Shown here in pieces: positions 36,551 to 60,823 of a stretch of 60,823 nt of DNA. The translations under genes were made by a program, and so were the position numbers. The notes under the pieces were generated by a model that was not told where the DNA came from, did not search any database, and was given only the letters and a program-made list of their open reading frames with translations. The DNA is taken from assembly GCF_000745455.1 (NCBI RefSeq), contig NZ_JQJI01000012.1, forward strand, positions 1 to 60,823. The letters are read 5' to 3'. The stretch's first letter is position 1. Each line of letters opens with the position of its first letter. This DNA is from Mesoaciditoga lauensis cd-1655R = DSM 25116 (lineage in GTDB: Bacteria; Thermotogota; Thermotogae; Mesoaciditogales; Mesoaciditogaceae).

Positions 36551-36685
36551 GTTTTTCACCCTCCGATGAGATTATATCATCGAAGGTGATTTCTTTTTTA
36601 TTCTAAAGGATTTTTTAGCTTGTTCGAAAATTCAAAGTTCAAAAAGCGACTATCAACTTTTTATTTTTAGCAAGATCATTAGAAA

Positions 36686-37027
36686 CTCATGTTGTGCATG
36701 AACATTACGAAAGGTATTACAAGGAGAAGATATGGACAACATTTGAATACAACGCTTTTTACTTACAATCCGCTTTCCAAGCGGCCAAGGCAATTTTTTT
36801 CGAAGTCCTGTCAGAACGGATTCGCTCTTCTTTCCGCCTTCCAATTCAAAATATGAGGCACGCTCAGACACTCGTCCGTGAGTGTTTCGCTTTCTCGGCA
36901 CGTCCTGTGCCTCTCAACCTCATATTTTGAATCTCCAGATGGAACGCTCACATGTTCTGACAAGTACTTCGAGGGTGAGATTTAATCCCTTTTTGAAATG
37001 CTTTGTAACATTGACGCACAATGTGAG
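36686..37027 (+). repeat. MITE-like palindromic repeat, complete copy (R2)
   Basis: 342 bp with imperfect terminal inverted repeats (CTCATGTTGTGCATGAACAT...ACATTGACGCACAATGTGAG) and a perfect 8-bp target duplication ATTAGAAA at 36678-36685 and 37028-37035. Internal modules in order: hairpin CCGCTTTCCAAGCGG, stem CGAAGTCCTGTCAGAAC with GTTCTGACAAGTACTTCG, and a central three-way palindrome closed by TTCAAAATATGAGG/CCTCATATTTTGAA. Reading frames through it are shadows. Confidence 0.92.
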
Positions 37028-37075
37028 ATTAGAAATATTGGATAAGGTCACAAGATTATAAGCTAATAGCTTTGT

Positions 37076-37327: not shown

Positions 37328-37488
37328 AAGTCTGTCCCCATTTATGGCGGAAGTATCGGCGGAGCCATTTTAAAATAAGAAGTCTACCCCCGTGTGCGGG
37401 GGAAGTGTCGACGGAGCCATTTTATATAAGAAGTCTGCCCCCACTTGTGGGGGAAGTGTCGGCAGAGCCGACGTAGGGGGCTGAGACT
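37328..37488. repeat. Three tandem ~52-bp hairpin units
   Basis: Units begin at 37328, 37380 and 37431, each starting AAGTCTG or AAGTCTA. They share a hairpin with CCCC/GGGG arms whose arms and loops vary (CCCCATTTATGGCGG, CCCCCGTGTGCGGGGG, CCCCCACTTGTGGGGG), followed by GAAGTGTCG(G/A)C-x-GAGCC. Unit three is complete: hairpin GTCGGC-AGA-GCCGAC and a closing arm AGTCTGCCCCC with GGGGGCTGAGACT. It thus folds as a three-way junction; units one and two appear truncated. Confidence 0.85.
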
Positions 37489-37724
37489 AACTCTTCACGC
37501 TCTGAATGATTTCTCAATTCTGGTTGGATGTCAAAGTTTGGATGAGTACATGAACGACGACTTGAAATCTGAATTTATTCTTTCTATTTTCTATCTTTTC
37601 CTGTAAAGATATGGAGGTGATATTTTAATTGTAACTATTATCTGAATTATCGCGAGTTATTTGGTTGTTAACGATCTTCGATTTTTCCATTGATTATGCG
37701 CTTTATTTTCAAATAAGCTAAAAC
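37489..37724. other. Intergenic stretch with nothing recognised
   Basis: AT-rich sequence between the tandem hairpins and the promoter of the next gene. It has stop codons in all frames and no clear hairpin or tRNA. Probably non-functional spacer or decayed sequence. Confidence 0.5.
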
Positions 37725-49965: not shown

Positions 49966-50386
49966 CTCATCTTGTGCACGAACATTACGAAAAGTATTAC
50001 AAGGGAAAATATAAACAATATTTGGCAACGCTTTTTTTGATTTAGCACCCGCTTTCCAAGGGGAGAAGGCAATTTTTTCGAAGTCCTGTCAGAACGGATT
50101 CGCTCTTTTTTCCATCTTACAATTCACAAATATGAGGCACGCTCAGACACTCGTCCGTGAGTGCTTCGCTTTATCAGCACGTCCTGTGCCTCTCAACCTC
50201 ATATTTGTGAATCTTCAGATGGAGAGCTCATATGTTCTGACAAGTACTTCGAGGGGAGATTTAATTTCTTTTTGTTTGGCTTTGCGCTTTGTAGTTGCTT
50301 TTCGCACATTTTTAGTCTCATTTTAGTTAATTTGGTTATTCACTTTGGCATTAACAATGCTTTGTAACGTTGATGCACACAATGAT
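49966..50386 (+). repeat. MITE-like palindromic repeat, longest copy (R3)
   Basis: Same family as 36686-37027 but 421 bp, with an extra AT-rich ~85 bp near the right end. Central stem TTCACAAATATGAGG/CCTCATATTTGTGAA differs from the 36686 copy by matched changes on both arms. The flanks TATGATAA (49958-49965) and TATGGTAA (50387-50394) agree in 7 of 8 positions, a decayed target duplication. Frames through it are not genes. Confidence 0.9.
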
Positions 50387-59019: not shown

Positions 59020-59176
59020 AAAAACACCTCCAAAAATTTTATGTATTTTGCATATATATGATATATGCTTGATTTTTCGTATGCTTTTCAAAAAGATGAA
59101 TAATGATGAATGGTTAGTAGCAATTCTTGACGTGTACCAAGTCTACAAACAAATGGTAAGTGGTAAGAAGTTATGA

Positions 59177-59412
59177 CTCATCATGTGCACGAACATTGCG
59201 AAAGGTATTATGAGGAGAACATGTGAGCAACATTTGACGACACTTTTGAATTTAAAGCCTGCTTTCCAAGCGGTCAAAGCATTTTTCGAAGTCCTGTCAG
59301 AACGGATCCGCTCTTCTTTCCGTCTGAGAGCTCATATGTTCTGACAAGTAACTTCGAGAGTGAGGTTTAATTCTTTTTTGAAATACCTTGTAACATTGAC
59401 ACACCATGCGAG
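59177..59412 (+). repeat. MITE-like palindromic repeat lacking the central palindrome (R4)
   Basis: 236 bp. It keeps both ends, the CCAAGCGG hairpin remnant and the GAAGTCCTGTCAGAACGG...GTTCTGACAAG stem, but the ~125-bp central module present at 36686 and 49966 is absent: TTTCCGTCT joins GAGAGCTC directly. The short flanks show no clear target duplication. The 59092-59176 stretch before it is AT-rich spacer. Confidence 0.88.
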
Positions 59413-60503: not shown

Positions 60504-60823
60504 CTCATGTTGTGTGTGAACATTACGAAAAGTATTACAAGAGACACTACAAAAATTTCTATGAGAACACGAGCAACATAGTGGAATACAATTCTTTTTT
60601 AAATGCCCGCTTTTCAGGCGGCCCAGACATTTTTTTTCGAAGTCCTGTCAGAACGGATTCGCTCTTCTTTCCTTCTTTCAATTCAAAATATGAGGCACGC
60701 TCAGACACTCATCCGTGAGTGCTTCGCTTTCTCAGCACGTCCTGTGCCTCTCAACCTCATATTTGTGAATCTTCAGATGGAGAGCTCATATGTTCTGACA
60801 AGTACTTCGAGGGTGAGATTTAA
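60504..60823 (+). repeat. MITE-like palindromic repeat, truncated by the window end (R5)
   Basis: 320 bp of the same family, matching the 36686 copy to its GGTGAGATTTAA and continuing beyond the window. It has the central palindrome with one mismatched arm (TTCAAAATATGAGG against CCTCATATTTGTGAA). It lies upstream of the histidine kinase gene, probably within or near its promoter region. Confidence 0.88.

Follow-up and report, generated by a model that had tools for sequence, protein, structure and literature searches.

To our knowledge, no function has been established for the TwoAYGGAY RNAs (RF01731) since 2010. When the family was described, its members came from gut metagenomes, Gammaproteobacteria and Clostridiales (PMC2864571). 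It has been predicted to bind CsrA, a protein for which sequestering RNAs had been established in Gammaproteobacteria alone (PMC4333381). In an ANGGAN hexaloop, CsrA/RsmE makes contact with the A and the GGA, the N positions being variable (PMC7652899, PMC3791407), and binding by RsmN is approximately 2-fold weaker for a 5-nt GGA loop (PMC3791407). Among bacterial MITEs, QMITE1/2 of Coxiella give rise to sRNAs (PMC5896051).

The window analysed here, a stretch of 60,823 nucleotides, is a single contig (C8) of the 2.17 Mb, 65-contig genome of Mesoaciditoga lauensis and contains five copies (R1 to R5) of a repeat. We put at roughly 60% the probability that the module at the centre of this repeat is a MITE-dispersed, TwoAYGGAY-type CsrA-binding RNA of the minus strand, which would be transcribed, bound by CsrA and act by titration; the module is called TwoAYGGAY-type on the basis of its structure, covariation, loop fingerprint and homology to RF01731. 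The features of copy R2 are as follows:

36686–37027, plus strand: MITE family 1 copy R2, 342 bp (ends aligned over 98 pairings)
36678–36685, no strand: left copy of the target-site duplication, ATTAGAAA (7–8 bp)
37028–37035, no strand: right copy of the target-site duplication, ATTAGAAA
36769–36977, minus strand: long-hairpin core of ~208 nt, also present between family 2 ends (low diversity)
36800–36819, minus strand: outer stem, left arm, partner 36954–36972 (fold and covariation)
36954–36972, minus strand: outer stem, right arm (fold and covariation)
36844–36858, minus strand: closing stem of the apical module, left arm, partner 36918–36932 (fold and covariation)
36918–36932, minus strand: closing stem, right arm (fold and covariation)
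36861–36868, minus strand: conserved UCUGAGCG strand
36869–36884, minus strand: hairpin b, RNA sense CACUC[ACGGAC]GAGUG with an ANGGAN hexaloop (plus strand CACTC-GTCCGT-GAGTG)
36886–36891, minus strand: conserved AGCGAA strand, predicted to form a tandem G·A stem with UCUGAGCG as in TwoAYGGAY
36897–36911, minus strand: hairpin a, RNA sense GGCAC[AGGAC]GUGCC with a GGA pentaloop (plus strand GGCAC-GTCCT-GTGCC)

The sequence-only reading had placed two inner hairpins beneath a closing stem in the centre of R2, and folding of either strand bore this arrangement out: the module gave z-scores of −5.5 (plus strand) and −6.0 (minus strand), and zero shuffled sequences were equally stable. Judged from its sequence, the structure is best read as an RNA of the window's minus strand. 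Departures from pairing were more often G·U on that strand (28 of 41 informative pairs, sign test p 0.03), an asymmetry also recovered from the cell spectrum (Fisher p 0.0008, the cells counted being non-independent). An RNA of the plus strand was rejected because of its less stable fold, the absence of a matching loop consensus and the wrong G·U asymmetry.

On the minus strand, hairpin b has the form C[ANGGAN]G and hairpin a the form C[AGGAN]G or C[ANGGAN]G, and paired C-ANGGAN-G hairpin loops of the kind expected of CsrA sites are accordingly present. The loops occur as ACGGAC, AUGGAC, ACGGAU and AUGGAU in hairpin b and as AGGAY, or ACGGAU in the B type, in hairpin a. In hairpin b of 97 own-genome copies the first A was retained in 96/97, the G, G and A in 97/97 each and the closing C-G in 94–95 of 97, and strong polymorphism was confined to the two N positions (diversity 0.47 and 0.49). 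The roughly 97 diverged copies in one genome constitute a natural experiment that isolates which bases matter: within the ANGGAN loop the two variable positions vary and the bases contacted by CsrA are fixed. Across 17 lineages with unrelated stems, the invariant letters were mainly CA.GGA.G in both loops, together with parts of AGCG/GAGCG.

As in TwoAYGGAY, two AYGGAY-type loops lie under a single closing stem, and tandem G·A pairs are predicted in one stem: the AGCGAA and UCUGAGCG linkers can form such a stem on the minus strand only. The strands AGCGAAG/UCUGAGCG hardly varied in alignments A4 and A5, and those of a B-type copy align with the RF01731 model; C-type copies show them less distinctly. 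By score, the window copy stands outside RF01731, giving no match at the gathering score (43 bits) or at E values up to 10. A B-type copy of the same genome aligned end to end with the RF01731 model (26.4 bits), and relatives from family f7/Marinitoga and from Granulosicoccaceae exceeded the gathering score (52.2, 50.6, 45.5 and 43.8 bits), in both cases in the sense of the window's minus strand. Judged by sequence and predicted fold, the module is a divergent member or a close relative of the TwoAYGGAY RNA, and this structural identification is very probably correct. The likeness comprises the closing stem, the two AYGGAY-type loops, the G·A stem beside hairpin b, the order of these parts and the strand. 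The differences are that the window copies score below the threshold, that hairpin a here usually carries a 5-nt AGGAY loop, and that the module here is MITE cargo in ~100 or more copies, Thermotogae not being among the listed taxa of the family. Searching the literature for sequence strings brought up nothing but unrelated papers.

Searches of the genome found 137 matches to the left arm, 98 to the centre and 135 to the right arm; 111 stretches (322 kb) were fetched, and 97 intact cores were aligned (mean pairwise identity 86%). The centre is not confined to the five repeats of the window and occurs in approximately 100 genomic copies. Within the window it is present in R2, R3 and R5 and absent from R1 and R4, as had been noted from the sequence:

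50126–50218, minus strand: apical module of R3, with its unique compensated left arm
60680–60774, minus strand: apical module of R5, arms mispaired, the element being cut by the contig end
26508–26715, minus strand: R1, family 1 MITE without the centre, flanking duplication ATGGTTC intact
59175–59412, plus strand: R4, family 1 MITE that has lost the centre by an internal deletion

Among 106 copies with both outer arms, the centre was of near full size (166–172 nt) or carried a small insert in 100, and the remaining copies had internal deletions; the centre is therefore part of the standard element and is sometimes lost. Copies without it are deletions with short junction overlaps at the hairpin base, and two of them have an identical 37-nt junction. 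From the proposed gain or loss of the module, the loss can be retained, R1 and R4 being deletion derivatives; gain found no support and was rejected, since the centre-less copies are such derivatives. At five own-genome positions (C2:156756, C1:164619, C11:48427, C29:8668 and C2:86041), chimeric modules were observed whose left half comes from one subfamily and whose right half comes from a second, the two being joined at the conserved TTCGCTTTC linker. Their closing arms are unable to pair, yet they persist, and they reflect either recombination at the module or misassembly.

The ends of R2 are CTCATG...TGAG, and its terminal inverted repeats are imperfect (CTCATGTTGTGC.. / reverse complement CTCACATTGTGC..; 36686–36702 at the left end). 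Across family 1 copies, the ends are CTCA..TGAG, and most of the direct repeats at the flanks measure 7 bp. Family 2 has unrelated ends, (A/G)GTTCTC...GAGAACC, and 8 bp target duplications; elements of both families are non-coding and bear terminal inverted repeats and target-site duplications, as MITEs do. About 20 further copies retain just the 208-nt core (window 36769–36977), framed by family 2 ends. In a tree, cores from families 1 and 2 were intermixed and one B-type core lay within a family 2 frame, which indicates that cores have been exchanged between the two MITE families. The suspicion of an element inside an element was in this way supported at another scale, that of the ~208-nt core common to two families with unrelated ends, and the apical module itself recurs under unrelated stems in other genomes. 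The module core is cargo of at least two MITE families and has been spread through intergenic DNA. Family 1 ends also enclose unrelated interiors (C64:58749) as well as C- and B'-type cores arranged in tandem. No clear autonomous parent transposon was found in the fetched DNA by terminal-repeat pattern and spacing, no candidate clearly bearing a transposase.

Several further arrangements were recorded. At loci L439–L457 of genome G000 (e.g., L441 1–620 and L442), C- and B'-type cores stand head to tail, with 2–3 modules ~210–300 bp apart; such arrays would put 4–6 GGA hairpins onto a single transcript. At C3:75554 and C3:103575 of G000, the core is split between stem and closing arm by other repeats of the GATCCTGAATCAAGTTCAGGATGACA type. 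Shortly downstream of R2 (window 37366–37490) there is another, unlike intergenic palindrome (GTCTGCCCCC..GGGGGAAGTGTCGGC..GCCGACGTAGGGGG), which is also present near other copies.

The many intergenic copies and the conserved tetranucleotide beside each hairpin would also suit single-stranded DNA hairpins of the REP/RAYT kind, moved by a Y1 transposase that recognises a CGCT-hairpin unit. REPs lack the terminal inverted repeats and the 7- or 8-bp duplications present here, and Y1_Tnp (PF01797) was found neither in the own genome nor in most module carriers, which places the repeat outside REP/RAYT. The missing transposase and the target duplications largely refute this explanation, which we consider extremely improbable.

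The sequence-only reading had rested its case for preserved pairing on R2 and R3, both arms of which do differ as claimed; as an instance of general compensation the pair fails, the R3 left arm occurring once genome-wide. In R5, the R2 left arm (TTCAAAATATGAGG) faces the R3 right arm (CCTCATATTTGTGAA), and the two mispair. Across the genome, the left arm TTCAAAATATGAGG pairs with CTCATATTTTGAA in 33 copies, and R2-type left arms face a mismatched right arm in 29 (...TTTGTGAA in 18 and ...TTTATGAA in 11). Because the R3 left arm was found once and 29 copies are mismatched, the paired change between R2 and R3 is a single event, and it was rejected as evidence of compensation.

Covariation over the collected copies was strong between subfamilies and genomes, at pairs other than those of R2 and R3. 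Double changes were found at 9/20 pairs in 13 module sequences (covariation score 0.328 vs 0.153 shuffled) and at 27/47 pairs in 13 whole cores from six genomes (0.416 vs 0.226 shuffled); for the cores, 0/500 shuffles reached the score and slid versions gave at most 0.09. When only the twin hairpins of 12 distant lineages were aligned, 96.8% of cells were paired (score 0.865 vs 0.216), and the closing C-G pair of each loop was the only invariant pair. RNAalifold alone gave double changes at 30/50 pairs. When 48 full-length family 1 copies were compared in blocks of 10 columns, diversity was ~0.01–0.09 where the core is paired and in the apical module vs 0.13–0.36 in most of the terminal inverted repeats and outer arms, and core divergence was 3-fold less at paired than at unpaired sites (0.024 vs 0.072). 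The low diversity of the core could derive partly from recent amplification and from recombination between copies; such recombination does not predict the loop pattern of hairpin b. Selection on structure, as originally proposed, is supported by the covariation between subfamilies and genomes, by the 3-fold lower divergence at paired sites and by the loop pattern. In G043, the near-identical elements L199 and L202 were seen to differ by a swap of a whole hairpin (HP1, CACTTC..GAAGTG vs TTCCCC..GGGGAA), their ANGGAN loops also differing (AUGGAC vs AGGGAA).

Complementary arms could alternatively be maintained at the DNA level, by template switching or quasi-palindrome correction together with recombination between copies, in a palindrome devoid of RNA function. 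Several observations would be in keeping with such an origin: the one-off perfect symmetrisation of R3 resembles a template-switch event, cores of one MITE family fall among those of the other in the tree, long palindromes typically give rise to deletion derivatives at the hairpin base, and the element has MITE ends and duplications at its borders. Unexplained by it are the fixed A, GGA and closing C-G beside freely varying N bases, the recurrence of the loops on entirely different stems in two phyla, the strand asymmetry and the tandem G·A stem available to one strand only; we regard a DNA palindrome without RNA function as unlikely.

With model R2, the module was detected in 18/103 Thermotogae genomes, at up to tens of copies each, as well as at 22 places in Marinitoga lauensis and at 36 and 44 places in two Gammaproteobacterial MAGs. 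A loose pattern scan of contigs gave mostly chance matches, and only those confirmed by a covariance model or, in Marinitoga, by the full grammar were kept. We infer that genus g10 of family f7 (including G043, G015 and G053) is Marinitoga, because the best places in G073 and in M. lauensis G105 coincide in coordinates. In G104 and G043, modules often form inverted pairs ~330–410 bp apart, like both ends of a larger element. In relatives from G004 (L220–L226) and G008 (L230–L257), the module is extended, its second hairpin being followed by additional structure (CTTCGCAGCTACCGCTTTGGTCG... with TTGCACACAGTGCAA). In an Oceanospirillaceae MAG (L343 3700–3860), the module is adjoined by short, directly repeated hairpins whose loops read CATCC(A)TG, with GGA on the opposite strand.

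The genome of M. lauensis (Mesoaciditoga) encodes a CsrA of 77 aa (PF02599 match) downstream of fliW, which aligns over residues 4–55 with the RsmE of solved RsmE-RNA complexes. CsrA was present in 17/18 module-bearing Thermotogae genomes vs 61/85 others (Fisher one-sided p 0.03, kinship ignored), a weak association; it was not seen in the module-rich genome G008 (87% complete), and neither CsrA (PF02599) nor a module match was found among the genomes listed for family f9. CsrA is probably the ligand in vivo.

According to the proposed mechanism, transcripts crossing the element would expose two GGA loops ~25–30 nt apart, and a CsrA dimer would clamp the two loops of one module. The ~100 or more copies would then represent a dispersed, titrating pool of CsrA-binding sites, and individual copies might also serve as local CsrA-dependent RNA elements when transcribed through. 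No shared promoter was found in the element, a promoter/terminator scan giving nothing convincing.

Single copies might instead act solely in cis, tuning the stability or translation of neighbouring mRNAs through CsrA or an RNase and without titration in trans. Rfam types TwoAYGGAY as cis-regulatory, whereas the table of Weinberg et al. (2010) scores it as probably not cis-regulatory (PMC2864571); the copies lie between genes, and MITEs of other bacteria change the expression of their neighbours (PMC3733652). The orientation of the copies to flanking genes was without bias (tandem 20 vs 21, divergent 30, convergent 20, by rough ORF calling) and thus gives no sign of a local regulatory role, and we hold a purely cis-acting element to be quite improbable.

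A broader view of the titrating RNA is offered tentatively, and we consider it doubtful rather than likely: a CsrA-titrating RNA may have turned transposon cargo when two unrelated MITE families each acquired, and exchanged, one TwoAYGGAY-type core, forming a genome-wide CsrA sponge in Thermotogae that can evolve by copy number, and perhaps independently in Gammaproteobacteria (36–44 copies). The module is common to Thermotogae and Gammaproteobacteria, and its carriage by two MITE families would mean that sites bound by a global RNA regulator can be dispersed by transposons.

The BOX elements of Streptococcus are modular, intergenic repeats with the potential to form structured RNA; the likeness to them is in these general traits, and the modules here are GGA twin hairpins. 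With CsrB, CsrC, RsmX, RsmY and RsmZ the module shares GGA in hairpin loops, repeated sites and the C[ANGGAN]G consensus. Those RNAs carry many sites each and are encoded by dedicated genes, one or a few in number, whereas here two predicted sites per module are distributed over ~100 transposable-element loci, some of them tandem arrays. Like the bacterial MITEs QMITE1/2 of Coxiella, ERIC, NEMIS, RUP and Nezha, the carriers are non-coding, intergenic elements of high copy number with terminal inverted repeats and target duplications; they differ from these in that a single structured core, belonging to a separately conserved RNA family, is common to two families with unrelated ends. The module is not a new kind of RNA, and what is new is its setting: two MITE families carry, and have exchanged, TwoAYGGAY-type modules with predicted CsrA sites at ~100 copies.
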